Source: Sesamum alatum (Eukaryota; Streptophyta; Magnoliopsida; Lamiales; Pedaliaceae). Taken from it: a stretch of DNA of 64,000 nucleotides. The DNA is taken from the NCBI GenBank assembly GCA_034509735.1, contig JACGWO010000007.1, positions 27,122,046 to 27,186,045 of the forward strand. The letters run 5' to 3'. Below, one piece after another: positions 31,680-64,000 of the stretch. Made by a program: the position numbers and the translations under genes. A model generated the notes under the pieces. It saw only the letters and a program-made list of their open reading frames with translations. It did not search any database and was not told the origin of the DNA. Numbering within the stretch: position 1 is the stretch's first letter; each line of letters starts with the position of its first letter.

Positions 31680-31762
31680 TACACACACACGCACACACAC
31701 ATACACTCACATACACAATTACTTGTTCACCCTCTTGTCTTTGTTTCCTCCATTCTCTCTTA

Positions 31763-31806: not shown

Positions 31807-31809
<3 letters not shown>

Positions 31810-31847
31810 CACACATACTCACAACACTTTGTACGCACGACAAAAAG

Positions 31848-32405: not shown

Positions 32406-32444
<39 letters not shown>

Positions 32445-35746: not shown

Positions 35747-35785
<39 letters not shown>

Positions 35786-35790
35786 AAAAA
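35525..35790. mobile_element. Half MITE of the 4.3-kb family plus TA microsatellite
   Basis: ATTACACTTAAATTCCCTC..., CTGTTTACACTTGAACCCC and TTCCGTTTAAGGCTTGAAC match the left arm of 4324-4814. The right arm is missing and replaced by a (TA)n tract at 35752-35781. Unit 2 copy: 55190-55430. Confidence 0.6.
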
Positions 35791-36285: not shown

Positions 36286-36659
36286 TCTTACGTGCGTTTT
36301 TCCAAGCGTCACTATAATGACTTCTCAAACGGGCGTGGCTTCTTTACATGTGAAGACCCCAATGTTTGCATGGGTAAAAAGCATAATTGCTTCAAGATTT
36401 ATATTTTTTTCTTCAAAGCAGTTATATTCTCCCTTACCCCGCCCCCGCCCCAAAGTGTTTCCAAGCTAAAACACGCGTCAATTTCTCTCCAGCAAAAACA
36501 AATGAACAACCACATACCCATCAGTTAAATTACAAACAAAAAACTAGGAGATGACCAAAAGAGCTTTTTTTGGTAAGGGACCAAAAGTGCCAATTATAAC
36601 GAATGAGACTAGAAGTGAAAATGGCTAAAACCAGAAAAATGCTTTACCCCCTATTCAAA

Positions 36660-37460: not shown

Positions 37461-37510
37461 TAGTGTAACATGCATGGCAGATATATTTTTTCTGTCTTTT
37501 TGTTTGTCTC

Positions 37511-38310: not shown

Positions 38311-38545
38311 TTTTTTTGTTTCTCCTTTATATATATATATACATACATACATGTGTGCGATCTTTGTCCTTCTTCTTTTGTTCAGATCTTTTATTTTAAA
38401 TATAAATTTTATTAGAAGTACTATCTTAAATTGGCAAGTGCTCAATCTTGAAAGTATAAACACAATTCCTTTGTTTTTGCCTTCGAATTTTGAAATAAGG
38501 CTTTTAGAAAAAAATCAAAATTGGCCTTCTCAATTTGTTTTCTTT
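38311..38545 (+). other. Tail of paralogue B
   Basis: Aligns with 32140-32350 downstream of gene A exon 2 (TGCTCAATCTTGAAAGT, CCTTCGAATTTTGAAATAA). At about 38540 it is fused directly to the minus-strand family member, which has thereby lost its exon 2; unit 0 keeps that exon. Confidence 0.65.
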
Positions 38546-38720
38546 CTCTAATATTGGTTTCGTCTATAAGGTGAAAGTTATCGTATGTTAGAGTTCATAC
38601 AAAATTATAAAATGGAATTAAAGGTTGAATATAGTTGACTCGCTGAATAAAGATCTACATTATTTCAATCATTTGAGTTGTGAGTCATCGTTTTACAAAC
38701 GAAAGCTACTCGCTAAATAA
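38546..38720 (-). pseudogene. Minus-strand family member remnant, unit 1
   Basis: Matches 175-345 of unit 0: the intron-1 segment (GGTGAAAGTTATCGTATG) and exon 1 region (TTTGAGTTGTGAGTCAT on the plus strand). Exon 2 is truncated by the fusion with B's tail. A second TAAAGATCTACATTATTT block at about 38718 repeats the intron start. Confidence 0.55.
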
Positions 38721-39270
38721 AGATCTACATTATTTACTAACTCAAGGAAGTCTTCTTTCTAAATATGAAAATCCACCATAAAGTTTTACAGACGAAAGCT
38801 ACTCATATACCATGTATATTTAATTTAGCACATGAATAGTTGATATAGTAAATCTTGTAATACACATTGCAATTATAAAACATCATAAAATAATTTTTCC
38901 ATAATACCCTACGACTGTATTGTACCATCCTTGACATTTTAAGGGATTTTAGAAATAATAGGCCTATTTTTTGGATAGATGATATTGCAATTAAAATTAT
39001 ATGTATATAGATTGCATTGTGTATACTAAATTTAAGGGTAAAATGCAAAAAAATCCCCCTATGTTTTGGAGAAAATGCTAAAAACCCCCGGTGATATGAA
39101 AATAGGCTAATGGTACCCTGTGTTTTATAAAAGTCTGCAAAAAACCCCCACATTCCGTCTATTTTTTACGGCATTTATGCTGGACGCGCTCCTATGCAAA
39201 TATTGGTCTTGTTTTTCGCTTTTTGGCCACTTTTGGCATGTGGAACTGTCATTTTTGCCCTTCCTATACC

Positions 39271-39432
39271 TATATAAATAACCCTTTGTTGACAAGAAGC
39301 ATTTTTGCCTCTTCTTTCCCTCAAATCGACTTCTTGCTGCAGTAGGTTAGTAAATAATTTTTTTTTCATTTTCTTATTAAAAAAGTTATTTTTGTTATTC
39401 ATTTATTTTTTTAAAAAAAATATGTTTGTAGG
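39271..39432 (+). promoter_or_regulatory. Promoter and leader intron of the GRF gene
   Basis: TATATAAATA box at 39271-39280. A leader intron is inferred from AGTAG|GTTAGT (39345/39346) and TTTGTAG ending at 39431, with ATG two bases later. Both features are unchanged in unit 2 (TATATAAATA at 58927; ATG 59089). Confidence 0.6.
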
Positions 39433-39846
39433 ATGTCTTCTTCATCGAAAACATCAACATCGAAGAAGGAAGAAAAGCTTGAACTGAGGTATAAAAATCC
39501 TAAATGTTATTGCCAAAAAAATGCAGTGATACGAGTTATTGGTCTACTTAAAGAAACGGAGGGAAAATTATTTTGCAATTGTCGGATGAATAATTATAAT
39601 TATTTTGCATGGTTAGAACCTGTTAGTGTTTGTTGCAAAAACTCAGATGTATTACAACAAGTGCCGGAAATTGAAGACGAAGTTGAATCGAACAGAGTTG
39701 TCGGATTTGATGAAAATATAGCCGAATTGATTTACGTGTGTCAAGAATTGACAACAAGCATAAAAAAGATGGAGAAGAATCAAAGAATGATGAAGTTCAT
39801 AACTTGTGTTATTTTTGCTATGTTATTTATTGTAATGTTGAAGTAG
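39433..39846 (+). CDS. GRF-type zinc finger protein, MULE-borne, unit 1
   Basis: A 137-aa single-frame CDS. Residues 24-61 form a GRF zinc finger: CYCQ...VIRVIG...EGKLFCNC...NYNYFAWLEP, with Cys at 25, 27, 48 and 50; the canonical G-R-x-F is G-K-L-F here. The central part is acidic (VPEIEDEVESN). A helical region (ENIAELIYVCQELTTSIKKM) leads to a C-terminal membrane segment (about 121-136, FITCVIFAMLFIVMLK). Small plant GRF proteins commonly share this finger, coiled coil and C-terminal hydrophobic tail. It lies inside the MULE, convergent with the transposase, and remains open in both units with 11 amino-acid differences. Its role in the element is unknown. Confidence 0.75.
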   Translation: MSSSSKTSTSKKEEKLELRYKNPKCYCQKNAVIRVIGLLKETEGKLFCNCRMNNYNYFAWLEPVSVCCKNSDVLQQVPEIEDEVESNRVVGFDENIAELIYVCQELTTSIKKMEKNQRMMKFITCVIFAMLFIVMLK

Positions 39847-40081
39847 TACTTTGACTCATGTAAATTGCACTTAACTCATGTAATTGCTAAGTTGTACTTT
39901 ATCTTTATGAAATGAAGTTGTTAGATTTTGTAGTATTATACTTATTGAAATATAGAAAGGCAACCGGCAGACCATTTCATGAACGCTAGAATACAACCAT
40001 AAAACACCAAAAGATAATAACATACTTCCATTTCATCAATTCCATTTCAAAAGCAACAATGACACAACAAGTTATAAACAA

Positions 40082-40508
40082 GGGTAAATTACATCTACCT
40101 CGCCTGAGGTTTGACATAATCACAAATACCCCCTCGTTGTTTGAAAAATTACAAATACCCCCCTGAGGTTTGTAACTTTTAACCAAAAGCCTGAAATGGA
40201 CTATTTTGCCCTTGAACTTTTTATTAAAATTATAGAAAAATCGGCCAAGGCAAATTGCGTTATTGCTCCTCTGGGTAAAAAACTTAAGAAACCTCTCCCT
40301 GCACATTGTAGTTCAAAAAAAATTAAGAATTAAATAAAAATATTTCAGTACATAAGGGCATTTTGGTCAGTTCACCCATAAAAATTGATGGGAATGGGTT
40401 ATTTGTTATACGATTACAAACCTTAGGGGGGTATTTGTAATTTTTCAAACAACGAGGGGGTATTTGTCACTATGCCAAACCTCATGGGAGGGTAGATGTA
40501 GTTTACCT
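40082..40508. mobile_element. MITE nested in the MULE, 10-bp TSD
   Basis: Ends GGGTAAATTACATCTACC and GGTAGATGTAGTTTACC. The flanks TTATAAACAA (40072-40081, 40509-40518) are identical. The arms share CAAATACCCCC and CCTGAGGTTTG. Unit 2 copy: 59738-60163. The 9-10-bp duplication and C-rich arms place it with the Mutator-type MITEs. Confidence 0.88.
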
Positions 40509-40794
40509 TTATAAACAATGACAAAAACAACCTACTTCCATTTCATCAATTCCATTTCAAAAGCAACAATGACACAAACAACTTAACAATGACAAAAGCA
40601 ACCTGTTTCCATTTCATCAATTCCATCTAACATGTCCAAAAAGAGGTCTTTAAATCCAACAACAAATTACATAAATGTAATATCAATACCAACATCCATC
40701 AACTAATAAATTCCACATGTTTCACAGAAGACACCCATCCACTATTTCATCAGCACAAACCTGATGTTTAATCACCACAAACAGTTGAACATTA

Positions 40795-43122
40795 TTTCTT
40801 TTGTGATGAATGTTGCTTTCCATTTGAATTCCTTGATGGTGATGAAGTTGATGTGTGAGGAGAAGAACAAAAACTATTTTGAAAGGGCTTTTTCTTTGCA
40901 GGCACAGGGGGGAGGGGGATTGTTGGTGGCATTCTTCTCTTTGGACATGTTTGCTTCCTTGATTTTTGATGATGACTTTTGTGATTGGGCATTTGAGGCA
41001 GATTGTAATACAGGGGGGGTGGGAAACATGTTTATATGATGCGATTGTGAGTAAACTATTTAATATATAGAAAAAGAAAGAAATACAAACATTCATTACT
41101 ACATAAAAACTGCACATGGAAATCATCATCATACAAATGAATGGATGTCCTCCTAATTTGCTATTGGACTGTTTGTGAGACCGGGGGGGGGGGGGGTCAC
41201 CTATTTATATGATGTGATTGTAAGTAAATTATTCATATAAAAGAATGAATAAAATTCAAACATTGAATTAGTACACGAAACTATACCTGAAAATCATCAT
41301 CATTTAAGTTAATTGATATGAAGCCAATTTGCTCTTGGACTGAAGTTTGTGTTGGCATCTAAACTTGAAAAAAAAAACAATTTATAGGATGTTGGGCTTC
41401 TTGATTGGTAGGGGGGATTTCTCTTTCATTGGTAGGATGTTGGGCTTCTTGATTGGTAGCAGACTGAAAGAATAAAATATAATCACAACATGCTACATTA
41501 AACAATTACATGACTATAATTAGAAAGTGTAAAACCTGTTCATTTGATGGTGGAATATTTGAGTTATTTTCAGCTTGTGAAGGGCCATGTGTACGACCTG
41601 GAGCCTAAAAAATTATAAATTGACACAAAAATAGTATTAGAAAAATATTGAATTATGCTTAAAAATTATATTTTTGCATGACTAAGATTGAAGTTACCTT
41701 GTAAAACCTTGAATTTGGATGGGGAGGATTCTTGCAACTTCTTTTATTATGGCCTTTCTCCAAGCCTATGGCATATGTGTGAGTGAGACCCCTTTGGGGA
41801 ATCCCCTCACCATCCCTCCTTCTCACTTTCTTGGGTCTTCGTTGTCTGATAAGTATGTCTAGGGGATTAACCATGCCAAGAGGGGATTCTTCATATTCAT
41901 GCATACCGGGAACAAAATTTATTATATGGTTGTACACAGACATGTGCACATTTTTTCTTCAAAGATCCATGCACATAGTCCTCCATATTCAACCTATGAT
42001 ACCCTATTGCTGCAATTGCATGACAGCAAGGGTATCCACAAAGCTGGAACATCCCACATCTGCAGTGTCTCTCATTAAGGTACACCACATGATTTTCCAT
42101 TAAATGTTGCACCTCATACTTGTCCTCCGCAGCCCAACTAGGAAAACAATGTTTGCTCTCACTCCTTTGCTTATCAATTTTTCTGACAATGTTCGGACAA
42201 ACCACCCCTTGCTACCTCTCCATCCCTTCTCTTTTAATCTGTATCCTTGTCTTGCATCACCTCCTTATCCACTCAAATATATCAATAATAGCAAGCTCTC
42301 TAGCCTCCAAGATGTAGCTATTAAATGATTCTGATTGTTGTTAACAATTACATAACACTTCGTTTGTAGTGGAACGAAACACCTTGCCCAATGATGTGAT
42401 GGAATGTTTTGCAGCCATTCATATGGAGTGAGTTGATTGGGCCTTTTCGGCCACCCCATTTCATTCTGTTTCATGACTCTTAAATGTTGTTTCACATTTT
42501 ATGTAGAAGTGGCCTTCCAGAACAATTTTTTTAAGCTCATGTCCCTTAAACTTCATTTTAAAATTGTTGTACATGTGCCTCAAACAATACATTTGTTCAG
42601 CATGTAAAGCAAGTGTGTTAACTGCTTCAATTTACCCCTTCTGCTTGTCAGATATAAATGCCCATCCCCTCTCATCGGCAGGCCCAATATCCCTCAGCAA
42701 CAGGTTTAAAAACGACTCCCAACTATCTGCCTTTTCAGCCTCAACAAATGCAAATGCCATTAGATATATGTTATCATTTTCATCCCTTACCACAACTGAT
42801 AACAATTGACCCTTATACACCCATTTCAAAAAGCACCCATCTAGCCCAATTATAGGTCTGCATCCATTTAAAAAAACCCTCTCTTAACCCCGAAAAAACA
42901 CACATACATTCTCTACAATACAGGGGGACTCAAAGCCCGATCAACCTTCAAGACAAAAGTGCTAGTGGGATTGTGTTTTGCAACTGTAGCACAATAATCA
43001 TAGAGCCTATGATATTGTTCTTTTATGTTCCCCCTCACCAGCTCTAATGCATGTCTTTTTGCCCTATACACCTTGTCGGGTAAAATGAAAATCAAGTTAT
43101 AGAAAATAGGCACCATTAGCAC
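40795..43122 (-). pseudogene. MULE transposase, N-terminally truncated and interrupted, unit 1
   Basis: Minus strand. 43122 onward: KVYRAKRHALELVRGNIKEQ and STFVLKVDRALSP. DDE domain near 42860-42630: IIGLDGCFLKW (first Asp), VYKGQLLSVVVRDENDNIY, KADSWESFLNLLL and GWAFISDKQKG, then an in-frame stop present in both units. Next an AVNTLALHAEQMYCLRHMY stretch. SWIM zinc finger near 42100-41990 (HCRCGMFQL...YPCCHAIA). The C-terminal zinc knuckle (TYAIGLEKGHNKRSC) has lost its first two cysteines. The last exon ends QKK-stop at 40795. The usual N-terminal 200-300 residues are absent. Confidence 0.85.
41180..41660. other. Intron and linker sequence of the MULE transposase
   Basis: Short exon-like minus-strand segments (for example QEQIGFISINLNDDDFQ at about 41290-41340, and APGRTHGPSQAENNSN at about 41560-41605) are separated by introns with CAG/GT-type boundaries. 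GTAGGATGTTGGGCTTCTTG is duplicated at 41384 and 41433 in unit 1 only. A G15 run lies at 41183-41197. Confidence 0.45.
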
Positions 43123-43139
43123 ATATATAAATTAGTAAA

Positions 43140-44046
43140 GGGACCCCAACACAAGACCCCATATACATTAAAAAAATCGAATCGTAATAAAAAAGAACCC
43201 CTGAAATCAAAATTTTGTCCCCGTTTGTAGAACATTATGTACAGGAGAGGGGGGCCAATTTCTTTTCAAAATCTGCCAAAACCCCTCATTTTTACCCATT
43301 CAAGAAATCCTAATTTGTCAAAGAAGAATATTTCTGTTTTATGCAAGTCTATATCGTTTTAGTTTTTGAAGCATTTGGCTCTTATTCGTGTTTCCCTCGT
43401 CTTTATTTGTTTGAGGAATGTGCATATTGGTTTTTGGCATATATGCACATTCAGCTTGCTATTTCCAAGAAGGATTACAAAAGGTTCAGGCTTGTGGGGG
43501 GCCATCTTTTTCTTTTTGTAAAATATGACTTCCCAAACACTACAAATATGAACAATATGAAGAATACCTACCTTTTGTGCCTATTTTCAGTTTCAGATTC
43601 GCAGGTTTGTCGCTTTCTTCGTCTTCTTCATTTTCTTCTTTTCCTCGCAAATCACTTGAAAATACATCGTGGGTCTTCTCTCAATGATGCAAACAAACCT
43701 TTCCCTCTATTTCTTTAGTGAAAATCAAAATCTATCTTCCAAAATTTCCCCTAAATCATACCCAAAAACCCTAGAAATTTTTTCACCCTTTCTTCTCTCG
43801 TCTTTTCCTTACTTTCTCTCTCTTCAATTTACCGTCTGTCAAATACATAGATAAAATGCACTCAATTTCACTGAAGGGTATAACGGGAAGTTCACTAATT
43901 TTTCTAATGCCGTTAGTTGTAAAAGTCAAAAGGGGACAGTGTGCAGATTTTTATAAAACACAAGGTACCATTTAGCCTATTTTCATATCAAATGGGGTTT
44001 TTAGCATTTTTTGCTAAAAACACCGGATGGGTTGGCATTTTACCCT
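43140..44046. other. Right terminal region of the MULE
   Basis: No transposase N-terminus is seen. The plus-strand frame 43341-43718 is partly shared with unit 2 (62995-63345) but interrupted differently and lacks a domain. The terminal inverted repeat starts at about 43900. Leader-like CCCTCTATTTC/TCTCTCTTC pyrimidine tracts lie at 43700-43830. Confidence 0.45.
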
Positions 44047-44189
44047 AAATTTAATTTAGCTATACCATCAATTTCACTTGAATACTCAGCCATCAACAAA
44101 TTTTCAAAATTGAGACTTTATTATTTACATGGGCATATAACTTCCATTCACGATTCATTACTATTCAATATATTAAAAGAAGAGGAGAA

Positions 44190-44190
<1 letters not shown>

Positions 44191-44267
<77 letters not shown>
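44191..44267. repeat. Compound (GT)n(GA)n microsatellite, unit 1
   Basis: Ten GT units followed by about 28 GA units; counterpart of 798-879. Confidence 0.95.
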
Positions 44268-44274: not shown

Positions 44275-44389
44275 AAGAGAGAAGAGAGAAAGAGAATCTT
44301 TCCCACATAACAAACCTTATATCCAAGAAGAAAAAAGAAATATTGTGAAGACATGCCATTGTTGTTGCGCTCTAGGAGGTACTTGTTGT

Positions 44390-44610
44390 GATTCTGGTAG
44401 CGGCGGAAATGGTGCCGACACATTAAAATTAAGTAGCTACAAAAGATCACACATGACCATCCAACACCAGTAAAAGTAGTTTTTCCCTATATTAATTCCA
44501 TTTACAAGATGAAAATCAACATATTTTAGAGATCATACAAAACTATAAAACACTAAATAAAGATCTACATTGTTTCCATTATTTTAGTTGTGTGCCATTG
44601 TTTCTTGTGT
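44390..44610 (-). pseudogene. Minus-strand family member of the head-to-head pair, unit 1
   Basis: Reverse complement shows ATG-GCA-CAC-AAC (44605 down) and an exon 2-like block (about 44520 down to 44395) ending in proline codons, with frameshifts. A deletion of about 225 bp at 44344 relative to units 0 and 2 removes its downstream flank. Confidence 0.6.
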
Positions 44611-44979
44611 GCAGAAAGTATTGTGTGGAGTATGTGCCTATGAGAGAGACTGGGTAAATAAATGAAGACAAAGGCAAGAGCGTGAGCAAACAATTAATAG
44701 ATAATTATGTATGCGAGTGTTTATGTTAGTAAATATATCAAGAGTGAATGTAATTGACACAATTCTTCGACGATATCTACACTGGCTTATGTAAGATGTT
44801 TTCATAACAAATAGTGAGTATGATGCCATGTCAATAGATCATATTTACCCAAATTCACAGTCACAACATAAATACTTATTAATTGTTTACTCACACTCTT
44901 ATCTTTGTCTCCACTCTCTATTGCTCAATCTCTCTCACGCACACATACTCCACACAACACTTTGTGCGCACAAGGAACA
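44606..44979. promoter_or_regulatory. Shared divergent promoter, unit 1
   Basis: The same arrangement as 1431-1811: paired CACATACTCCACACAA blocks next to the two start codons, ATTAATTGTTTRCTCAC blocks further in, and a centre at about 44795 with TATGTAAGATG and a decayed half-palindrome. The two arms together form an inverted repeat of about 190 bp per side, continuing into exons 1 and 2. Confidence 0.6.
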
Positions 44980-45215
44980 ATGGCGCACAACTCAAATGAT
45001 GGAAGCAATGTAGATATATCTTTACTAAGCGATTCGACTACATTCAACCTTTAATTGTATTTTATATTTTTTTATGAGCTCTGAGGTATGTTAATTTTCT
45101 CCTTGCAGATGGAACCAATACAGGAAAAAGACTACTTTTAAGGGTGTTGGAGAGTTAATGGTATGTTTTTTTCAGAGCCACTTATTTTAATGCGTCCGCA
45201 CCACCTCCACCATCA
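44980..45215 (+). pseudogene. Plus-strand family member C, unit 1 (nonsense in exon 2)
   Basis: Exon 1 44980-45009 (MAHNSNDGSN), intron to CCTTGCAG at 45108, exon 2 from 45109 (ATGGAACCAATACAGG). It stops at TAC TTT TAA, the same position as in unit 0. The R transposon at 45225 removes the rest. Confidence 0.7.
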
Positions 45216-45224
45216 CCAGCTTTA

Positions 45225-49865: not shown

Positions 49866-50137
49866 ATATAGTATATAAGATTATCGAATCGTTGATGGAA
49901 TTTAAGTATATTATATTGAAACCGTTGATTTATGCAAAATGAGAAAATCTCTTGAACAACCCATATGGCACGCATGCCCGTGTAGTACAAGGTTCTTGCA
50001 TTTTTGAAGTGCATGGAATTTCCAATATATATATATATATATGATAACTCAAGAAAGATTTTTTAGTGAAAGTTCAAAAAGATAGAAGATTTATTTATAT
50101 CACAAAAATAAAAATCACCATCTATTTAATTTCTCCA

Positions 50138-50560
50138 TATTCTTATGGAGATATTGTAAATATCTTATACCTAGACACGATTTAATTATGTGCATCCATA
50201 CATAACAAAAATTGCATGTCCGTACTGAAGATTTCGTACATAACGAAAATACAAAATAATTATCTATGAAGGTACGACCATGTTAATGATCCATATACTT
50301 TAAGAATTAATACATTTATCCGTTAATGATCCATATTCTTATGGAGATATTGTAAATATCTCGTGCCTAGACATGATCTAATTATGTAAATTTGTACACA
50401 ACAAAAACTACATATCCCTACACAACGAAAATTGCATGCTCGTACTGAAGATTTCGTACATAACAAAAATGCATGATAACCTCCTATGAACGTACGACCA
50501 TGTTAATGATCCATATACTTTTAATAATTAATACATTCATCCGTTTCTGTATGGAATTAA
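50138..50560. repeat. Tandem repeat of about 200 bp, unit 2
   Basis: Two copies, as at 30392-30810, with the same internal insertion in the second copy. Confidence 0.8.
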
Positions 50561-51267
50561 ATTGTACCTGAATGTGTTCAAGGAAAATAATCGATAACTA
50601 CTTTTTACTCCAAATTGAATTTTATTCAATTACTAATATATGATTAATGGCACGTACAACTTAAAACTTTGTATTGCACCAGCCAGGCCATCACAGTTAA
50701 TTTAGTAGCAACAGTAACAGAAATAGAAAATACAAAATGCAGTCCATATACATACAATTAATTTCAATTATGTATCATTAATCTCAACAAGAGGCCTATT
50801 TAATTTCTAAAATATCTTAAATTGCCAAGGCTGGTATAACACATTTGTAGGATATTATGGATATTAATTTTAAAATGTATATTGTTGCAATTAATGTGTA
50901 TTATATGATTTACTATATCTATTATTCATGTGTTCAATTAATTATATATGGTTAGTGAGTAGCTTTGGCCTGTAAATCTTTATGGTGGAATGTTTTTATT
51001 TAAAAGTAACATTTTTCATAATTTAATTAGATTGTGTTATTTAAATTGTTGCAATATTATAAATATTTTGAATTTGAATACAATCTCATGTGTCATAAAT
51101 ACACTCATATTTTCTATTAAAGTTGTGTTTATCTGTTGTTGTTGTGGTTGAATATTTTTTTAAGGCTTTAAATCTTTTTTAATTAGTAATTGCATTCTAG
51201 CCATCTATTCAAGGATCAATAAGAAATTATATTTTAAAAAATATTTGCCTACATTTGATGTTTTATG

Positions 51268-51332
51268 ACAAACAGTGAGGATCATGCCACGTCAATACGA
51301 TCTGTTAACGTGGCGTAATCCTTACTGTTTGT
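51268..51332. promoter_or_regulatory. ACGT-box palindrome upstream of gene A, unit 2
   Basis: ACAAACAGTGAGGATCATGC on the left arm pairs with GCGTAATCCTTACTGTTTGT on the right. The facing boxes are GCCACGTCAA and TTAACGTGGC. Within each 25-nt arm 22 positions pair. Confidence 0.65.
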
Positions 51333-51506
51333 TATGAAAATATTTTATACAAGTCAGTGTAGATATCGCTAAATAAAATTGTCTCCATTACATTCACTCA
51401 ATACATATTTACACACACACACACACACACACATACACTCACATAAATAATTACTTGTTCACCCTCTTGTCTTTGTTTCCTCCATTCTCTCTTTTCTCTC
51501 TCTCTT

Positions 51507-51538
<32 letters not shown>

Positions 51539-51581
51539 ATACACACATACTCCACACAACACTTTGTACGCACAACAAAAG

Positions 51582-52138
51582 ATGGAGCACAACCCAACTA
51601 ATGAAAGCAATGTAGATCTTTACTTAATGATTCAACCTTCAATTGTATTTTATAGTTTTGTATAAGTTCTAACATATGTTAATTACACCTTGTAGATGGA
51701 ACCAATACTCGAGAGAGACAACTTATACGGGTGTTGGAGAATTAATGGTGTGCTCTTTCCGGAGCCACTCGATTTTAATTGGCCGGCACCACCTCCGCCA
51801 CCACCTCCACCATCACAACATGCACCTCCAAGAGTGCAACAGGCATGGGGCAGATCTTTCTTTCTATATATATTTTTTATTGTTTTCTAATATATATATA
51901 TATATATATACATGTGTATGAACTTTGTTGCTCCTATTTTTTTTAGATCTTAATATTTTATATATGAATTTTATAAGAGTACTAACTCAATTTGTAACTG
52001 CTCAATCTTGAAAGTGTAAACACAATCCCTTAATTGGTTTGTCCCTTCGAATTTTGAAATAAAGCTTTTCGAAAAAATAAAAAATTGGTTTTCTTAAAAA
52101 AAAGTTATATATAAGGTTTGATCTGTGGGAAGATTATT

Positions 52139-52190
<52 letters not shown>

Positions 52191-54552
52191 CTCTCTCCCC
52201 AATTTTTTTGGAGGAGGGAGGGGTACAGGATTCGATATGTGAAAAAGCTTCTTTCTTTTCTATCTTAAGGTTCTATCTCTCGCTCCCTTCATTTTCTTTT
52301 TCTTTTGTTTTTAAGGGGGGTACAAGGTTCGATTTATGAGAAATATTTCTTTCTTCTCCATGTTAAGATTCTCCCTCTCTCTCTCTCTTTCTTTTTTTTT
52401 TTTTTTTTAATTTATTGGTGAACACTAATGACTGGGGATAAGAGTTACATGCCCATCCAAATAATAAAGTCTGAATTCAAGGAATTTGTTGAAGGTTGAG
52501 TGTTCATATAAAAATAGGTTAAAAAGCTATGCGTCAAGTTAAAACTGTCAGAGCAGCTATTAAAAAAAATAGTAGTTTTGCTTTTACAATCAAGATTAAT
52601 TAGGTATCATATTAATTTGCAGCTTGTCTTTTTTTTTTTTTTTTTTTGGAACAAATTTTGCAGTTTGTCTTAAATTACCTTTTGACATGTGTACCATAGA
52701 GAATTCAACAAACCAAAAGAGCTACTCTATAGTCAACACACCCATAAGTGCATATACTAAAGTAGAAGTAAGAGGAAATATATTGCCTATCAAACCAAAT
52801 TTAGAGAATTAACACTTTATATATGCATATACTTGTTATGCCGTCAATTCAAAACTTGAATATGCTTATTCTATTAATCATTTAACCTCGCATGGTTCTG
52901 TGAATTTAAGGAAAAAAAAAAAGAACTTGGCACATTGATTACAAATCATTCTCACCATTTTAATTTTTCTTTATTTGTCCACTTCATCAACTAATAATTA
53001 TGTTAAGATTCAATTCATGCAGGAGCAAGCACGATCAAGCAACGAAGGATCTTCACAAAGGAGAAAACGGGACCTAACTGCATCGAGGATTGTCGCATCA
53101 AAAGCAATTTTGCTCAGACTTTTAAGATGCGAAGAAACGTCTGAATATATTTTGGAGATGTTGGAGGTTGCTTTAATTTCTTGTTTTGTGAATTCATACT
53201 TAGTGTATAGTCACTATAAGAAAATCATGAAATAAGCAATACTAATAAAAACAAAGGGCCTTATACTTATATTTCACATTAAATTTGAATGTCAAAAGGC
53301 AAAAGGTTTCATCTTCTAACATTGTTGCTACACAAAAAAAAAAAAAAAAGGAACTAAACATGACAATTAAACTTGAGATATATAAAATACCAAAATTAGT
53401 ATAACCCTCTTATTCATATTCTTGTTTTCTTGTATCAAAGACTGCAACTGGGAAGACAACATATTATGTTTTATCGCCATTTGAGAAATTGGGTAGAAAA
53501 AAGATGGAAGCAAAAGAAATCTACCTTGGGCAGAGGGTGGTGTTCCCGGTGAATGAAGAAGTCTATCCCGATATAGAAAGCAAGTATCCGTTATCAATGA
53601 AAGAGCGACTGGAGGGGAGATGGACTATTGAGGTTAGAGAACGTACGGGAATTATCAAGACCGAAAAGGTACGTTACTTAATATAACTGGACTTATCTCT
53701 TAGTTAAGTACATATAGAAGGTATGTTAGTTAATTCAACTCCATGCATCTCTTAGTTGGGTAAGTTAATACAACTACACGTGTATCTTAGTTAAATAGAT
53801 ACAAAAGTTACGTTAGTCAATATAACTACATGCGTCTTTTAGATAAGTAGATAATAAGGTACGTTAGTTAATATACTGCGCGTGTCTCTTAGTTAAGTAG
53901 GATAGAAGATACGTTAGATAATATAACTACACACGTCTCGTAGTTAAGTTAATACAACTGCACGTGTCTTTTGTTAAGTAGATACATAAATTACATTAGT
54001 CAATATAACTACATGCGTCTCCTAGTTAAGTAGACACATATTATAAAAGATACATTGAAATCAAGGCCGACACTACTTCATAGACGTGTGTATGGTTGTA
54101 GACAATATGAAAATACTTGTATGTTGGATTTCGTTGTTTTTTATCTTATTATAGTTCATAACAGAGTCGCCAATGTTGCTTTCATGTAACAAGTTATATA
54201 TTTTGACATAAAGTTATTATCATTTATGATCTTGTCTTAGCGCCACTACATCATATAATACATCATTCATGATATCAAATTTTAATTTATTTAATTTGAA
54301 AATATAGTTCGTGAAGCTATAAAATATTTGTACAACACCCACGAATTGGATGGCCTAAATATTGTGGTCTTGAAATATTATCTATTTGATTTATATGTGT
54401 ATTTTTCTTTCTTTTTTTTTTTTTGCACAAGGATATATCTACTAATTAACAAGATTTCTTCTTTTTAGTTTTATTTCCATGAAAAGGTCAACAAAACCAT
54501 GCGATCTATGAATGATATTGCAACGTTCATCATGTACCATGTGATTTACTAG
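51582..54552 (+). CDS. Gene A, unit 2: five exons, about 207 aa
   Basis: Exons 51582-51611, 51696-51833, 53023-53166, 53441-53668 and 54469-54552, each a multiple of three with phase-0 GT-AG introns, stop TAG at 54550. Exon 2 reads MEPILERDNLYGCWRING then an eight-proline run. Exon 3 reads EQARSSNEGSSQRRKRDL, whose RRKR could act as a nuclear signal, then TASRIVASKAILLRLLRCEE. Exon 4 starts TATGKTTYYVLSPFEKLG, and exons 4/5 give the MBD-like EGRWTIEVRERTG...KFYFHEKVNKTMRSM. Compared with unit 1 it has three fewer residues' difference overall (207 against 204): two extra Pro pairs in exon 2 and one codon less in exon 3. I do not recognise the full-length family. Expression is not known. Confidence 0.52.
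52143..52196. repeat. (CT)n microsatellite, gene A intron 2, unit 2
   Basis: Longer than the unit 1 tract at 32409-32451. Confidence 0.95.
53667..54050. repeat. Splice-site minisatellite, unit 2
   Basis: Same array as 33941-34325 with small indels; it begins at the AAG|GTACGT donor of intron 4. Confidence 0.75.
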
Positions 54553-55930
54553 ACTGCGGTGAGTACTTACTCTAATGTATCTTCAAACTTTCCAAAAGTT
54601 TCATCCAAAAATTTTAATATACATCTTACTATCACTAGAATTTTGATGTGCAGGTTTGAGAAGGAAGATGTTGTTACAGACCGGCCCAATGAAGCTCGAG
54701 CTTAAACTTATTCCGGCTGAAAAGATGCATGTTTCTTTTGTTAGCCCTTAAGGTTGTTTCTAGTTGTCTTGAACGTTGTATGGGAGAAGAAAATTTAGCT
54801 CAGTAATGATTTTTCTAGTTTTGCAAATATTTGCCGTTAACTTTCCGTAACCCTCTCCGGTGGAGCAACCGTCGGTTTCTTTCCTAATTTGTTTGGCCTT
54901 GGCTTCCTAACAGATGTATACTCTGATGACCATGATATGCAGCCTTCTTCCGTGCAAGTCTATGTTTGAAGACTTTAAATGTTAACTAGTCCAAAACGCA
55001 CGCTCGATGTGTGTGCAATTAAAATAATATTTTATTAAACTAATAATTTGTTATCAAAACGCAATTGAGTAGAATAAAATAGAGAGAGAATAAATGGATG
55101 ATGGAAAATTCATATATACAAAAAAATATGGATGAGTGAGATAATAAGTGGGGGAGAGTTACTTGAACATGGGAAGTGAACAAATAAAATAATCACACTT
55201 AAATTTCCTCGAAAAATATGAAATTACACTTTTTCCAAAGAATTTTCAAAGTTAGACTTACACCCCTTTCGAAAATTCACTGTTTACACTTGAACCCCTT
55301 CCGTTAAGGCTTGAACGAAACGATTGAGTTAAAAAAAAATACATAAATTTCCAATTTTACCCTTCGTTCACAATTCACTATAAAATTTTCATATTTCTAA
55401 GGGAGTAAATATAATATATATATATAAAGTCAAAAATACATAATTGTAATAAGCGTGGGTGCACAAGTGGAGCGCCACAAGGATCTAGCAAGGCCATGCA
55501 CTTGGCCAGTTTTCCCTCAAAAAGTCGGGATATGGATAACATCGTATCCCCCCGATTGACCTCTCTTAAACCAGGCAAGAGTCTTTTCAGACCTCTCGGT
55601 CACCCTCGGATATTGAAGAGGCTCATCCACAGTAACCACCCCTGACTCCTAGGGATATAAGACTCCTTCCTCCCTCGCCAGGAGATTCCAACTATAAATA
55701 TAGGTTTGGCTGGGGGGACACTTACTTAATTTTGCATAAGCACTTACTCACTAACTGAATTTTTATCTCAATTTCGTTAGTATCATAGCTCGTCATTTCA
55801 TTAACACGCTTCTATCATTTTATTCTAAAACTGCGTACTGACTCGAGCGTCGAAATGTTACCGTTTCTTTTGCAGGTTCCCGTTTCAGGCTTGCTAGGGA
55901 AGTTGGCCCTAGAGACCTTCAGTCCATGGA
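54553..55930. other. Gene A 3' region, half MITE and LTR fragment, unit 2
   Basis: Collinear with 34891-36285: 3' UTR-like sequence to about 54840, the half MITE at 55190-55430, then the Gypsy-like LTR fragment (55440-55930) with ACTATAAATATAGG (about 55691) and CTGACTCGAGCGTCG (about 55836). Confidence 0.6.
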
Positions 55931-56309
55931 CTCTGTTACGTGCGTTTTTCCACGCGTCACTATAATGACTTCTCAAACGGGCGTGGCTTCTTTACATGTG
56001 AAGACCCACCAATGTTTGCATGGGTAAAAAGCATAATTGCTTCAAGATTTATTTTTTTTTCTTCAAAGTAGTTATATTCCCCCTCATCCCCGCCCCCGCC
56101 CCCAAAGTGTTTCCAAGCTAAAACACGCGTCAATTTTCTCTCCAGTAAAAACAAATGAACAACCACATACCCAGCGGTTAAATTACAAACAAATAACTAG
56201 GAGATGACCAAAAGAGCTTTTTTTGGTAAGGGACCAAAAGTGCCAATTATAACGAATGAGACTAGAAGTGAAAATGGCTAAAACCAAAATAATGCTTTAC
56301 CCCCTATTC

Positions 56310-57160
56310 AGATTGTTGCAACCATAGAAATGTTTCGAATTTGGACACAATCTCCTGTGTCATAAATACACTCATATCCCCTATTAAAGTTTCATAAATA
56401 TCATATCCCCTACTAAAGTTTCATAAATACACTTATATCCCCTATTAAAGTTGTGTTTATCTCTTGTTCTCGTTGATTTTTTTCTTTTTGGCCTTAGATC
56501 TTTTTTAAATTAATTAGTAAGTACATCATAGCCATCTATAGGGACATGTGAAAAATATTTTTTCTAAAATATTTGCCTACACTTGGTGTTCTATAACAAA
56601 CGGTAAAGGTCATGCCACATCAATATAATATGTTAACGTGGCATCATCCTTACTTTTTGTACGAGAACATCTTATATAAGTGAGTGTGAATATCGCTAGG
56701 GAGAATTGTCTCCATTATATTCACTCTTTATATATTTACACACACACACATAAATAATTACCTTTTGATTATTTGCTCACACTCTTGCATTTGTTTCAAC
56801 TCTCTATTTACTCAGTCGCTCACTCACACATGCTCCACACAACACTTTTTGCACAAGAAACAATAACGCACAACTCAAATGATGGAAGAAATGTAGATCT
56901 TTATTCCACTACATTCAACCTTCAATTGTATTGTAAAGTTTTATATGAGCTCTAACATATATTAATTTTCATCTTGAAATTGGAACTAATACTGAAGAAA
57001 GACTATTTCTATGGGTGTTGAGGGTTAATGGTGTGTTTTTTCTAGAGCCACTTAATTTTAATTTTTCGGCCCCAGCCCCACCATCAGTACCACCACCATC
57101 ACAACAAGTACCTCCAATAGTGCAACATGCATGGCAGATATGCTTTTCTGTCTTTTTGTT
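56310..57160 (+). pseudogene. Paralogue B, unit 2 (decayed)
   Basis: Same lesions as unit 1: start codon changed to ATA (ATA ACG CAC AAC near 56861), exon 2 acceptor lost, and a TGA within the YGCW region. The palindrome is at about 56597-56660. The end of exon 2 keeps CAAGTACCTCCAATAGTG. Confidence 0.7.
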
Positions 57161-57960
57161 TGTCTTTTTTTTTTAGTAAAGTCGTCTGTGCCTAGACGGG
57201 GGGTTTGACGGACCCCTACCCATTTATTGATTCAAAGGGCTCAAAAATAGTTTATAACAGTGCACAAACTACAAAACTCTAACATCACTTGAAATGAAAG
57301 TTGGGTGAATGCATATCAAAAAATCAAGGTTGCCACAGTTTGTAGTCTGTATCCTTCAACGATCCCCCGGCATGACATTCATAGGCAAGATTCGCCAATG
57401 CATCTGCTACCCTGTTTGCTTCACAGTATATATGCGTAAATTTCAGGCTCATGTGTCGTCTAAATCTATGGATAGATGTCAAGAAATGCTGAAAGCTCCA
57501 ATCACCGATCCTGAATTGTACCACGTGGAGGACCACTTTTGAGTCGAACTCATCCCACTCCTGCTTGAACCCCTTGGCCATGCAATATCCAGTCCCCTAG
57601 CTAGTGTCGCCAGCTCAGTGTATGTATTAGTTTGGAATCCAAGATATTGATAATATGTTACAATTTCACGACCATCCTCATCGCACAAGAAGCCCCCACC
57701 GCCGATAATCTTGGGGTTTCCCTTGGACACCCCATCACGTTTAACTTAATCCAGCCCCTCGACAGTGGATGTCGTCATACCTTAGGCCTTGGCTGGGGAG
57801 CATGCTGAAAATGAAAACCAAGCCTAGCTGCCGCGCGGAAGTCCCCTCGCCAATGCGACGCTCGGGATGAGCCAACCTTGTAGGCATGCGACAAGTAATT
57901 AGTGATATTATGGATTGTGGTTGCCGCTCTGAAAGGTATTCCTTGGTGTTTAGCCTGATT
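57161..57960 (-). mobile_element. LINE RNase H fragment in B, unit 2
   Basis: Counterpart of 37511-38310. The minus strand keeps GVSKGNPKIIGGGGFLCDED, ELATLARGLDIAW and FTHIYCEANRVADALANLAY, but the usual N-V-D-G aspartate reads N-V-M-G. Two frames (57730-57479 and 57581-57324) overlap by one shift. Confidence 0.85.
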
Positions 57961-58199
57961 TTTTTTTGTTTCTCCTTTATATATATATATATATACATAC
58001 ATACATGTGTGTGATCTTTGTCCTTCTTCTTTTGTTTAGATCTTTTATTTTAAATATAAATTTTATTAGAAGTACTATCTTAAATTGGCAAGTGCTCAAT
58101 CTTGAAAGTATAAACACAATTCCTTTGTTTTTTCCTTCGAATTTTGAAATAAAGCTTTTAGAAAAAAAATCAAAATTGGCCTTCTCAATTTGTTTTCTT

Positions 58200-58370
58200 T
58201 CTCTAATATTGGTTTCGTCTATAAGGTGAAAGTTATCGTATATTAGAGTTCATACAAAACTATAAAATGGAATTAAAGGTTGAATATAGTTGACTCACTG
58301 AATAAAGATCTACATTATTTCAATCATTTGAGTTGTTCGTCATCATTTTACAAACGAAAGCTACTCGCTG
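58200..58370 (-). pseudogene. Minus-strand family member remnant, unit 2
   Basis: Matches 38546-38720 and 175-345; exon 1 region (TTTGAGTTGTTCGTCAT) and intron are recognisable, and exon 2 is truncated as in unit 1. Confidence 0.5.
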
Positions 58371-59088
58371 AATAAAGATCTACATTATTTACTAACTCAA
58401 GGAAGTCTTCTTTCTAAATATGAAATTCCACCATAAAGTTTTACAGACGAAAGCTACTCATATACCATGTATATTTAATTTAGCACATGAATAGTTGATA
58501 TAGTAAATCTTGTAATACACATTGCAATTATAAACATCATAAAATAATTTTTCCATAATACCCTAGGACTTTGTTGTACCATCCTTGGCATTTTAAGAGA
58601 TTTTAGAAATAATAGGCCTATTGTTTGGATTGATGATATTGCAATTAAAATTGTATGTATATAGATTGCATTGTGTATACTAAATTTAAGGGTAAAATGC
58701 AAAAAAATCTCCCTATGTTTTGGAGAAAATGCTAAAAACCCCCGGTGATATGAAAATAGGCTAAATGGTACCCTGTGTTTTATAAAAGTCTGCAAAAAAC
58801 CCCCCACATTCCGTCTATTTTTTACGGCATTTATGCTGCACGCGCTCCTGTGCGAATATTGGTCTTGTTTTTCGCTTTTTGGCCACTTTTGGCATGTGGC
58901 AATGTCATTTTAGCCCTTCCTATACCTATATAAATAACCCTTTGTTGAGAAGAAGCATTTTTGCCTCTTCTTTCCCTCAAATCGACTTCTTGCTGCAGTA
59001 GGTTAGTAAATAATTTTTTTTCATTTTTTTATTAAAAAAGTTATTTTTGTTATTTATTTATTTTTTTGAAAAAAAATATGTTTGTAGG

Positions 59089-59502
59089 ATGTCTTCTTCA
59101 TCGAAAATATCAACAACGAAGAAGGAAGAAAAGCTTGAACTAAGGTATAAAAATCCTAAATGTTATTGCCAAAAAAATGCAATGATACGAGTTGTTGGTC
59201 CACTTAAAGAAACCGAGGGGAAATTATTTTGCAATTGTCGAATAAATAATTATAATTATTTTGCATGGTTAGAACCTGTTAGTGTTTGTTGGGAAAACTC
59301 AGATGTATTACAACAAGTGCCGGAAATTGATGACGAAGTTGAATCGAACAGAGTTGTCGGATTTGATGAAAATATAGCCGAATTGATTTACGTGTGTCAA
59401 GAATTGACAACAAGCATAGAAAAGATGGAGAAGAATCAAAGAATGATGAAGTTCATAACTTGTGTTATTTTTGCTATGTTATTTATTTTAATGTTGAAGT
59501 AG
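59089..59502 (+). CDS. GRF-type zinc finger protein, MULE-borne, unit 2
   Basis: 137 aa, same length as unit 1's copy. The finger cysteines (25, 27, 48, 50) and FAWLEP are intact, as are the helical segment and membrane tail. Differences from unit 1 are T7I, S10T, V32M, I36V, L38P, M52I, C68W, K69E, E81D, K110E and V134L: scattered and mostly outside the metal-binding residues. The leader intron and TATATAAATA box are preserved. An in-frame ATG at 59047 lies in the putative leader intron and is not preferred. Confidence 0.75.
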   Translation: MSSSSKISTTKKEEKLELRYKNPKCYCQKNAMIRVVGPLKETEGKLFCNCRINNYNYFAWLEPVSVCWENSDVLQQVPEIDDEVESNRVVGFDENIAELIYVCQELTTSIEKMEKNQRMMKFITCVIFAMLFILMLK

Positions 59503-59737
59503 TACTTTAACTCGTGTAAATTGCACTTAACTCATGTAATTGCTAAGTTGTACTTTATCTTTATGAAATGAAGTTGTTAGAGTTTGTAGTATTATACTTA
59601 TTGAAATATAGAAAGGCAACCGGCAGATCATTTCATGAACGCTAGAATACAACCATAAAACACCAAAGGATAATAACCTACTTGCATTTCATCAATTCCA
59701 TTTCAAAAGCAACAATGACACAACAAGTTATAAACAA

Positions 59738-60163
59738 GGGTAAATTAAATCTACCTCGCCTGAGGTTTGACATAATCACAAATACCCCCTCATTGTTTAA
59801 AAAATTACAAATACCCCCCTGAGGTTTGTAATTTTTAACCAAAGGCCTGAAATGGACTATTTTGCCCTTGAACTTTTTAGTAAAATTATAGAAAAATCGG
59901 CCAAGGAAAATTACATTATTGCTCCTTTGGGTAAAAAACTTAAGAAACCTCTCCCTGCACATTGTAGTTCAAAAACAATTTAAGAATTAAATAAAAATAA
60001 TTCAGTACATAAGGGCATTTTGGTCAGTTCACACATAAAAATTGATGGGAATGGGTTATTTGTTATATGATTACAAACCTTAGGGGGGTATTTGTAATTT
60101 TTCAAACAACGAGGGGTATTTATCACTATGCCAAACCTCAGGAGAGGTAGATGTAATTTACCC
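59738..60163. mobile_element. Nested MITE in the MULE, unit 2
   Basis: GGGTAAATTAAATC...GATGTAATTTACCC, flanked by TTATAAACAA on both sides (59728-59737, 60164-60173). Confidence 0.88.
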
Positions 60164-60445
60164 TTATAAACAATGACAAAAACAACCTGCTTCCATTTCA
60201 TCAATTCATTTCAAAAGCAACAATGACACAAACAACTTAACAATGACAAAAGCAACCTGTTTCCATTTCATCAATTCCATCCAACATATCCAAAAAGAGG
60301 TCTTTAAATCCAACAAGAAATTACATAAATGTAATATCAATACCAATATCCATCAACTAATAAATCCCACATGTTTCACAAAAGACACCCATCCACTGTT
60401 TCATCAGCACAAACCTGATGTTTAATCACCACAAACAGTTGAACA

Positions 60446-62804
60446 TTATTTCTTTTGTGATGAATGTTGCTTTTCATTTGAATTCCTTGATGGTAATGAA
60501 GTGGATGTGTGAGAAGAAGAACAAAAACTACTTTGAAAGGGCTTTTTCTTTGCAGGCACAGGGGGAGAGGGGGATTGTTGGTGGCATTCTTCTCTTTGGA
60601 CATGTTTGCTTTCTTGATTTTGATGATGACTTTTGTGATTGGACATTTGAGGCAGATTGTGATACAGGGGGGTGGGAAACATATTTATATGATGCAATTG
60701 TGAGTACACTATTTAATATATAAAAAAAGAAAGAAATACAAACATTCATTACTACATAAAAACTGCACTTGAAAATCATCATCATTCAAATGAATGGATG
60801 TCCTCCTAATTTGCTATTGGACTGTTTGTGAGACCGGGGGAGGGGGGTTCACCTATTTATATGATGTGATTATAAGTAAATTATTCATATAAAAGAATGA
60901 ATGAAATTCAAACATTGAATTAGTACACGAAACAATACCTGAAAATCGTCATCATTCAAGTTAATTGATGTGAAGCCAATTTGCTCTTGGACTAAAGTTT
61001 GTGTTGGCATCTAAAATTGCAAAAAAAAAAACAATTTGTTAGGCTAAAACAATTGGAAAAATAAAATTGTATTGCAAATTACCTGATTGGCAGAGGGGAT
61101 TTCTCTTTCATTGGTAGGATGTTGGGCTTCTTGATTGGCAGCAGACTGAAACAATAAAATATAATCACAACATGCTACATTAAACAATTACATGACTATA
61201 ATTAGAAAGTGTAAAACCTGTTCATTTGATGGTGGAATATTTGAGTTATTTTCAGCTTGTGAAGGGCCATGTGTACGACCTGGAGCCTAAAAAATTATAA
61301 ATTGACACAATAATAGTATTAGAAAAATATTGAATTATGCTTAAAAATTATATTTTTGCATGACTTAGATTGAAGTTACCTTATAAAACCTTGAATATGG
61401 ATGGGGAGGATTCTTGCAACTTCTTTTATTATGGCCTTTCTCCAAGCCTATGGCATATGTGTGAGTGAGACCCCTTCGGGGAATCCCCTCACCATCCCTC
61501 CTTCTCACTTTTTTGGGTCTTCCTTGTCTGATAAGTATGTCTAGGAGATTAACCATGCCAAGAGGGCATTCTTCATATTCATGCATACTAGGAACGAAAT
61601 TTATTATATGGTTGTACACAGACATGTGCACTTTTTTTTTTCAAATATCCATGCACATAGTCCTCCATATTCAACCTATGATACCCTATTGCTGCGATTG
61701 CAGGACAGCAAGGGTATCCACAAAGCTGGAACATCCCACAGCTGCAGTGTCTCTCATTAAGGTACACCACATGATTCTCCATATAATGTTGCACCTCATA
61801 CTTGTCCTCCGCAGCCCAACAAGGAAAACAGTGTTTGCTCTCACTCCTTTGCTTATCAATTTTTCTGACAATGTTTGGACAAACCACCCCTTGCTACCTC
61901 TCCATCCCTTCTCTTTTAATCTGTATCCTTGTCTTGCATCACCTCCTTATCCACTCAAATATATCAATAATAGCAAGCTCTCTAGCCTCCAAGATGTAGC
62001 TATTAAATGATTCTGATATGTTGTTAACAATTACATAACACTTCGTTTGTAGTGGAACGAAACACCTTGCCCAATGATGTGATGGAATGTTTTGCAGCCA
62101 TTCATACGGAGTGAGTTGATTGGGCCTTTTCGGCCACCCGATTTCATTCTGTTTCATGACTCTTAAATGTTGTTTCACATTTTATGTAGAAGTAGCCTTC
62201 CAGAATAATTTTTTTTAGCTCATGTCCCTTAAACTTCACTTTAAAATTGTTGTACATGTGCCTCAAACAATACATTTGTTCAGCATGTGTAGCAAGTGTG
62301 TTAACTGCTTCAATTTACCCCTTCTGCTTGTCAGATATAAATGCCCATCCCCTCTCATCTGCAGCCCCAATATCCCTCAGCAACAGGTTTAAAAACGACT
62401 CCCAACTATCTGCCTTTTCAGCCTCAACAAATGCAAATGCAGTTAGATATATGTTATCATTTTTATCCCTTACCACAACTGATAACAATTGACCTTTATA
62501 CACCCATTTCAAAAAGCACCAATCTAGCCCAATTATAGGTCTGCATCCATTTAAAAAAACCCTCCTTTAACCCCGAAAAACACACATACATTCTCTGCAA
62601 TACAGGGGGACTCAAAGCCCTATCAACCTTCAAGACAAAGGTGCTAGTGGGATTGTGTTTTGCAACTGTGGCACAATAATCATAGAGCCTATGATATTGT
62701 TCTTTTATGTTCCCCCTCACCAGCTCTAATGCATGTCTTTTTGCCCTATACACCTTGTCGGGTAAAATAAAAATCAAGTTATAGAAAATATGCACCATTA
62801 GCAC
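60446..62804 (-). pseudogene. MULE transposase remnant, unit 2
   Basis: Same layout as in unit 1. The DDE start reads LDWCFLKW (Gly to Trp), the ISDKQKG-stop lesion is shared, the SWIM finger has lost its His (YPCCPAIA where unit 1 has YPCCHAIA), and the zinc knuckle lacks its first two cysteines in both. YVCFSGLKEGFF near 62580 is the usual entry to the DDE domain. The C-terminal exon is frameshifted relative to unit 1. Confidence 0.85.
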
Positions 62805-62819
62805 ATATATAAATTAGTA

Positions 62820-63678
62820 AAGGGACCCCAACACAAGACCCCATATACATTAAAAAAATCGAATCGTAATAAAAAAGAACCCCTAAAATTCAAAATTTTG
62901 TCCCCGTTTGTAGAACATTAATTAAAGGAGTGGGGGCAATTTCTTTTCAAAATCTGCCAAAACCCCTCATTTTTACCCATTCAAGAAACCCTAATTGGTC
63001 AAAGAAGAATATTTCTGTTTTATGCAAGTCTATGTCGTTTTAGTTTTCGAAGCATTTGGCTCTTATTCTTGTTTCCCTCATCTTTATTTGTTTGAGGAAT
63101 GTACATATTGGTTTTTGGCATATATGCACATTGAGCTAGCTATCTCCGAGAAGGATTACAAAAGGTTCAGGCTTGTGGGGGGCCATCTTTTTCTTTTTGT
63201 AAAATTAGACTTCCCAAACACTACAAATATGAACAATATGAAGAACCCTCTTCTTCAGTTTCTTCTTTTCCTCGCAAATCACTTGAAAATACATCGTGGG
63301 TCTTCTCTCAATGATGCAAACAAACCATTCCCTCTATTTCTTTAGTGAAAATCAAAATCTATCTTCCAAAATTTCCCTTAAATCATACCCAAGAACCCTA
63401 GAAATTTTTTCACCCTTTCTTCTCTCGTCTTTTCCTTATTTTCTCTCTCTTCAATTTACCGTCTGTCAAATACATAGATAAAATGCATTCAATTTCACTG
63501 AAGGGTATAACGGGAAGTTCACTAATTTTTCTAATGCCGTTAGTTGTAAAAGTCAAAAGAGGACAGTGCGCAGACTTTTATAAAACACAAGGTACCATTT
63601 AGCCTATTTTCATATCAAAGGGGGTTTTTAGCATGTTTGCTAAAACACCAGGGGGGAGGGGGGGTTGGCATTTTACCC
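62820..63678. other. Right terminal region of the MULE, unit 2
   Basis: Parallel to 43140-44046. A stretch of about 50 bp (TACCTTTTGTGCCTATTTTCAG-like in unit 1) is missing near 63245, joining two pyrimidine-rich blocks. Confidence 0.45.
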
Positions 63679-63687
63679 TAAATTTAA

Positions 63688-64000
63688 TTTAGCTATACCA
63701 TCAATTTCACTTCAATACTCAGCCGTCAACAAATTTTCAAAATTGAGACTTTATTATTTACATGGGCATGTAACTTTCACTCACGATTCATTACTATTCA
63801 ATATATTAAAAGAAGAGGAGAATGTATGTGTGTGAGAGAGAGAGAGTGAGAGAGAAGAGAGAAAGAGAATCTTTCCCACATAGCAAACCTTATATCCAAG
63901 AAGAAAAAAGAAAAAAGAAACATTGTGAAGTCCAAATTTTTTTCTAAAAGTTTTATTTTAAAAATCGAAGAAAATAAAGGGATTGTATTTACACTTCAAA
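63688..64000. other. Start of the C region, unit 2 (runs off the window)
   Basis: Aligns with 658-1020 of unit 0 and 44056-44344 of unit 1, including a short GT/GA tract (63823-63860). The last 75 bases match unit 0 positions 941-1020, which unit 1 has lost. The head-to-head gene pair should lie just beyond the window end. Confidence 0.8.

Follow-up and report, generated by a model that had tools for sequence, protein, structure and literature searches.

Gene A, a frame of five exons present intact in both units of a tandem duplication, is best explained (with a probability of about 0.6) as a coding gene of a Lamiales family, with a C terminus that resembles a methyl-CpG-binding domain (MBD) and a 5′ end that has repeatedly been copied in part. 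It was studied in a stretch of 64,000 nucleotides of Sesamum alatum DNA, here called the window. It is probably a gene, and its product probably an unusual representative of an established class of chromatin proteins. The encoded protein would begin with an N-terminal linker, in which a YGC-R-NG motif is followed by a run of prolines and the basic stretch SSQRxKRDL, continue with a conserved block from exons 3 and 4 for which there is no Pfam name, and end in a divergent MBD-like domain that the last coding intron interrupts. If expressed and spliced as modeled, it would be a small nuclear protein binding DNA through an MBD-like fold, perhaps at methylated CpG, a role suggested by likeness, and either the conserved block or the proline run might serve to recruit a partner. 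Gene A would have been duplicated along with a tandem unit of roughly 19.7 kb, and the dead copies would have arisen as its 5′ end was partly duplicated again and again. An expressed gene A would represent a divergent branch of plant methyl-DNA readers that also carries an unnamed conserved block. The array, with its two intact and its inverted partial copies, would offer a tractable case of a regulatory gene family duplicating, decaying, and possibly seeding small RNAs.

Gene structure and relatives in the Lamiales

Two tandem units lie in the window, each with one intact copy of gene A (Table 1). The five-exon frame proposed for both units in a preliminary description, made from the sequence alone, is indeed present. 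All exon lengths are multiples of 3 in both copies, the introns of that model are all GT-AG, and the uninterrupted frames of 205 codons (unit 1) and 208 codons (unit 2) translate into 204 and 207 amino acids without an internal stop. By itself, such a frame is only moderately surprising: mononucleotide shuffles of exons 2, 3, 4, and 5 were open in 229, 60, 4, and 237 of 2,000 cases, respectively. It is the relatives in other species that make the frame more than chance.

Table 1. Positions in the window of the tandem units, the exons of gene A, and the partial copies
Feature	Position	Strand	Basis or remark
Tandem unit 1	30203-44236	+	94.1% identical to 49973-63868
Tandem unit 2	49973-63868	+	94.1% identical to unit 1
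Gene A unit 1, exon 1	31848-31877	+	Translation
Gene A unit 1, exon 2, with probable GC donor	31962-32096	+	Translation and sesame protein; end in preliminary description, 32087
Gene A unit 1, exon 3, frame shifted over first third (compensating indels)	33290-33436	+	
Gene A unit 1, exon 4	33715-33942	+	Translation, alignment to relatives
Gene A unit 1, exon 5	34807-34890	+	Translation, MBD-profile ranking
Gene A unit 2, exon 1 (MEHNPTNESN)	51582-51611	+	Sesame P0001 has ME...SN at the equivalent place
Gene A unit 2, exon 2, VQQ followed by probable GC-AG donor	51696-51842	+	End in preliminary description, 51833
Gene A unit 2, exon 3, ancestral frame	53023-53166	+	Sesame, Buddleja, and Rehmannia proteins
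Gene A unit 2, exon 4, conserved core	53441-53668	+	Alignment to relatives
Gene A unit 2, exon 5 (MBD-like domain, latter half)	54469-54552	+	Stop TAG at 54550-54552
Possible exon 6 or former C terminus	54654-54705	+	Sequence inspection; ORF FEKEDVVTDRPNEARA, then stop
Partial copy, exons 1 and 2	74-325	-	Alignment
Inverted pair of partial 5′ copies, head to head	821-2049	.	Related to 44354-45217
Partial copy with broken frame, from upstream region to slightly beyond exon 2	36765-37493	+	Alignment
Partial copy, exon 1, intron 1, start of exon 2	38537-38693	-	Alignment
Inverted pair of partial 5′ copies, head to head	44354-45217	.	Alignment
Partial copy in unit 2 equivalent to 36765-37493	56418-57139	+	Alignment
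Partial copy, exon 1, intron 1, start of exon 2	58192-58348	-	Alignment

When 5.8 billion proteins were searched with a single sequence and 3,509 candidates were scored, one match emerged at an E value of ≤10, the uncharacterized protein LOC105179568 (P0001) from sesame, Sesamum indicum (E value, 4e-26). A three-row profile built from the two gene A proteins and LOC105179568 gave five matches among 7,992 scored candidates. These were P0001 again, three further uncharacterized proteins at E values of 4e-38 to 9e-32, and P0005, a 74-amino-acid protein without a name (1e-15). The three are BUALT_Bualt19G0034700 from Buddleja alternifolia (P0002; 256 amino acids), DH2020_015096 from Rehmannia glutinosa (P0003; 204 amino acids), and Sindi_1658900 from S. 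indicum (P0004), a 76-amino-acid partial sequence labeled UNVERIFIED_CONTAM that coincides with exon 4. The four named relatives align to parts of exons 1 to 4, with 45 to 79% identity over the aligned part. Over exon 4, the unit 2 protein is 78% identical to P0004, 69% to the Rehmannia protein, 63% to the Buddleja protein, 66% to the short P0005, and 51% to LOC105179568, the last figure referring to a model without the second half of the exon. The exon 4 core of the LOC105179568-like family, ATGK...KMEAKEI...YPDIESKY.LS..ERLEG.WT.E.R, is found in gene A. Compared with gene A, the LOC105179568 model is missing the latter half of exon 3, perhaps through gene-model loss, as well as most of the latter half of exon 4. 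Exon 5 is present in none of the five protein models, which end or diverge after exon 4, and a protein search with the C-terminal half alone gave two candidates and no match. Nothing turned up in a tblastn search of plasmids either, where no match was to be expected.

Buddleja and Rehmannia belong to the Lamiales, as does Sesamum. Judging by these predicted proteins, the family is wider than the array in the window. An orphan gene private to the array is ruled out by the relatives in Sesamum, Buddleja, and Rehmannia, and the novel, lineage-specific family of the preliminary description is not supported, given predicted members in those three genera and the MBD-like C terminus of gene A. In a literature search of titles and the beginnings of abstracts, we found nothing on LOC105179568 and nothing evidently relevant on MBD proteins in Sesamum indicum.

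The relatives also bear on the exon boundaries. In the protein alignment, sesame P0001 reads PPRVQQ-EQVGSNNEGSSQRKKRDL over exons 2 and 3. The reading PPRVQQEQ favors an exon 2 ending after VQQ, probably nine bases further than first modeled, at a GC donor (CAG/GCATGG) of a GC-AG intron; we infer this donor from protein, not cDNA. In exon 3, unit 2 reads EQARSSNEGSSQRRKRDL, alongside EQVGSNNEGSSQRKKRDL in sesame, LLRCDEESVYILE in Buddleja, and LFRCNEDYDYILE in Rehmannia. The sesame reading shows that the ancestral exon 3 frame is retained by unit 2 and not by unit 1. In unit 1, one G is missing at the start of the exon and four extra bases lie further in (−1/+4 indels); the first third is read in another frame that then rejoins, and the conserved SSNEGSSQR stretch is replaced. 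The preliminary exon model is thus upheld in its frame, but its exon 2 donor disagrees with the VQQ of sesame and its unit 1 exon 3 frame is not the ancestral one. The Buddleja and Rehmannia proteins are continuous across the exon 3/4 junction, with E-[IV]ATG as in gene A. The relatives support exon 4 as well as the way it connects with exon 3. The candidate shared joins, over exons 3 and 4 in P0002 and P0003 and over exons 2 and 3 (VQQEQ) in P0001, which skips the latter half of exon 3, come from a comparison of proteins only.

Past exon 5 of unit 2, a donor (GCG/GTGAGT) after position 54558 and an acceptor (GTGCAG/G) are followed by FEKEDVVTDRPNEARA and a stop, in a frame not joined to exon 5. 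Unit 1 has the equivalent GTGAGT donor and GTGCAG acceptor past its exon 5 stop, followed by FEKEDVVIDRPNEARA and a stop, also out of frame. This open reading frame may be a lost C terminus or mark a 3′ untranslated region (UTR) intron; a C terminus lengthened by the putative exon 6 had no match in Pfam.

Intron 4 of both copies contains overlapping tandem repeats (33970-34313 and 53666-54034; approximate periods, 51, 83, and 183 to 188 bases). A short hairpin upstream of gene A, at 51261-51339, has 35-nucleotide arms that are 83% complementary and a 9-nucleotide loop, and is perhaps a small inverted-repeat insertion.

Divergence between the two copies

Across 519 aligned coding bases, units 1 and 2 differ in 16 codons, with 9 nonsynonymous and 7 synonymous changes; these counts exclude the frame-shifted portion of exon 3 as well as the end of exon 2, where the proline run lies. 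The dN/dS ratio was 0.32 by NG86 (dN, 0.022; dS, 0.069), 0.30 by LWL85 (dN, 0.021; dS, 0.069), and 0.53 by YN00 (dN, 0.025; dS, 0.047), and the deficit of nonsynonymous changes gave a P value of 0.03 in a one-sided binomial test. Substitutions between the units number 17 in 611 exon positions and 63 in 2,324 intron positions, so that the exons overall are not slower. Together, these values hint weakly at constraint on gene A. The preliminary description had called gene A the functional member of the array and had proposed dN/dS between the spliced coding sequences as a check. That claim is weakly supported: a ratio of 0.30 to 0.53 speaks for it, but exons that diverge like introns speak against it.

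Decay is a serious rival, if on balance an unlikely one, and the equal divergence of exons and introns speaks for it. Gene A would then have been functional in an ancestor, and both copies would be recent relics whose frames are yet unbroken. The replacement of SSNEGSSQR by the unit 1 indels would fit such a history, as would the probable GC donor of exon 2, the orphan C-terminal reading frame past exon 5, which is out of frame with it, and the nine truncated or broken relatives in the window. Against decay stand the 205 and 208 codons free of internal stops, the unit 1 indels that compensate each other, and the nonsynonymous deficit (9 changes against 7; P = 0.03).

The MBD-like C terminus

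Exon 4 ends with ERLEGRWTIEVRERTGIIKTEK, and exon 5 reads FYFHEKVNKTMRSMNDIATFIMYHVIY. By eye, before the searches had returned any MBD, we took this tail to be a divergent methyl-CpG-binding domain. The exon 4/5 junction quite likely reads through such a domain, with about the last 17 codons of exon 4 forming its first half in unit 2. Over some 40 residues, the tail shares W, E-x-R-x-R-T, K-F-Y (AtMBD5), and R-S positions with Arabidopsis AtMBD5 and AtMBD6 (PDB 7feo and 7d8k). It differs from AtMBD5 in a loop that is three residues shorter, and from both proteins in a Glu for the Asp of the V-D-K position and in its N-terminal part. The MBD fold consists of three strands and one helix. The two MBD arginines that contact methyl-CpG are both aligned in the gene A tail, and their acidic partner, the Asp, is replaced by Glu.

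Against the PDB (177,635 sequences), the native 54-amino-acid tail had a single match at an E value of ≤10, AtMBD5 (E value, 0.44). In Smith-Waterman alignments, 0 of 5,000 shuffles scored as well as the tail against AtMBD5, 3 against AtMBD6, and 33 against MBD2. On a profile of these three sequences, the unit 2 tail was third of 20,002, with two shuffles better. With the exon 4 tail fixed, the two exon 5 copies ranked 1 and 2 on an MBD profile among 1,624 AG-led plus-strand continuations of at least 12 residues from the whole window. Among AG-led continuations downstream of exon 4, the genuine exon 5 came out on top of 69 in unit 2 and of 66 in unit 1. A chimera of the Rehmannia exon 4 tail and the window's exon 5 matched AtMBD5 at an E value of 0.025 and the Pfam MBD at 0.004; AtMBD5 and AtMBD6 were the sole PDB matches among the tail queries (native tail and Rehmannia chimera). 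Pfam MBD was found with four of five chimeras of relatives' exon 4 tails and nothing with the fifth, in a set that shares exon 5 and so is not independent. The best chimera scored 17.2 bits, under the gathering cut-off of 21 for PF01429. One of five shuffled chimeras matched an unrelated Pfam family at an E value of 0.0012, which makes the chimera E values unreliable. The likeness to solved MBDs nevertheless appears to exceed chance, though it is weak, and points to a likely identity that the preliminary description had missed.

Other searches were consistent with a working gene whose C-terminal likeness arose by chance and whose function lies in the exon 3-4 block. PF01429 was not matched by native tails or full proteins (E value of ≤1 in one run and ≤10 in others), and the full 207-amino-acid protein had 18 PDB matches at an E value of ≤10, with no MBD among them. 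The match of a shuffled chimera to an unrelated family would agree with a chance likeness, as would the relatives' models that end or diverge after exon 4. We nonetheless hold this reading to be rather improbable: the only PDB matches of the tail queries are AtMBD5 and AtMBD6, the exon 5 copies are the best two of 1,624, and the likeness crosses the intron in the right frame. A family-tail profile, which kept only 28 positions because most rows (4 of 6) end at exon 4, did not find an MBD in the PDB; its sole match, at an E value of 1.9, was a chance one. Exon 4 alone gave a predicted fold too poor for a fold search (pLDDT, 58.8; pTM, 0.35).

Even with an MBD-like tail as the preferred reading, methyl-CpG binding by gene A should not be assumed, because, of 13 Arabidopsis MBD proteins, MBD5, MBD6, and MBD7 are reported to be the only ones that bind methylated CpG in vitro (PMC4416881).

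Elsewhere in the protein, the exon 2 core contains no recognized domain, as had been noted before. Pfam matches were all below the cut-off and fell within the proline run or close to it (best E value, 0.0014; none for the unit 1 protein), and we attribute them to low complexity. A likeness of exon 4 to death-on-curing protein (E values, 0.22 and 0.59) was not significant.

Partial copies of the 5′ end

The dead paralogues described around gene A are present as nine truncated partial copies in the window, each matching all or some of the upstream DNA, the first exon and intron, and exon 2. They are 70 to 83% identical to each other and to gene A, with closer pairs at 87 to 96%. Exons 3 to 5 were not found in the window outside the two gene A copies (blastn E value, 1e-3; tblastn E value, 1). 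Four of the nine form two inverted pairs, one of copies at about 0.82 to 1.68 kb (−) and 1.69 to 2.05 kb (+), the other of copies at about 44.35 to 44.85 kb (−) and 44.85 to 45.22 kb (+). The copies at 36.8 and 56.4 kb stop 13 to 23 bases past exon 2. The minus-strand copy at 821-1681 aligns about 350 bases into intron 2, in a CT-rich stretch, and a piece of intron 2 (51874-52097) occurs separately at 38310-38533 and 57958-58188.

Exons 3 to 5 missing from all nine copies, the ends just past exon 2 at 36.8 and 56.4 kb, and the two head-to-head pairs might suggest that a mobile or repeat-prone module makes up the 5′ end, from the upstream region through exon 2, with gene A as a fragment caught by this module or donating to it. 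This is extremely unlikely in our judgment, since the end points differ (as the copy reaching into intron 2 illustrates), the intron 2 piece lies apart, there are no inverted repeats of at least 15 bases in 36600-37700, and the sesame protein joins parts of exons 1 to 4.

In the inverted pairs, the longest gap-free arms are 104 to 108 bases long and 83 to 84% complementary. Each pair, as tested over 1124-2049 and 44354-45220, has four exact 21-mers in common with a gene A transcript model to which a guessed 5′ UTR was added. Transcription of the pairs could yield a hairpin and small RNAs, which we offer as a lead only. A bolder version, in which a fast-evolving Lamiales chromatin reader is opposed by hairpin or small RNAs from its own inverted 5′ copies, with gene and silencer in one array, strikes us as very unlikely.

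Each tandem unit also holds a second plus-strand open frame, at 39415-39846 and 59014-59502 (143 and 162 amino acids from stop to stop), with a subthreshold GRF zinc finger (E values, 0.012 and 0.0018) and, by eye, a hydrophobic C terminus. Elsewhere in the window, a LINE-type element at 21299-24788 (+), broken into several frames, retains a reverse transcriptase domain (PF00078; E value, 4e-19; 22868-23305) and a zf-RVT domain (PF13966; E value, 1e-15; 24291-24785).
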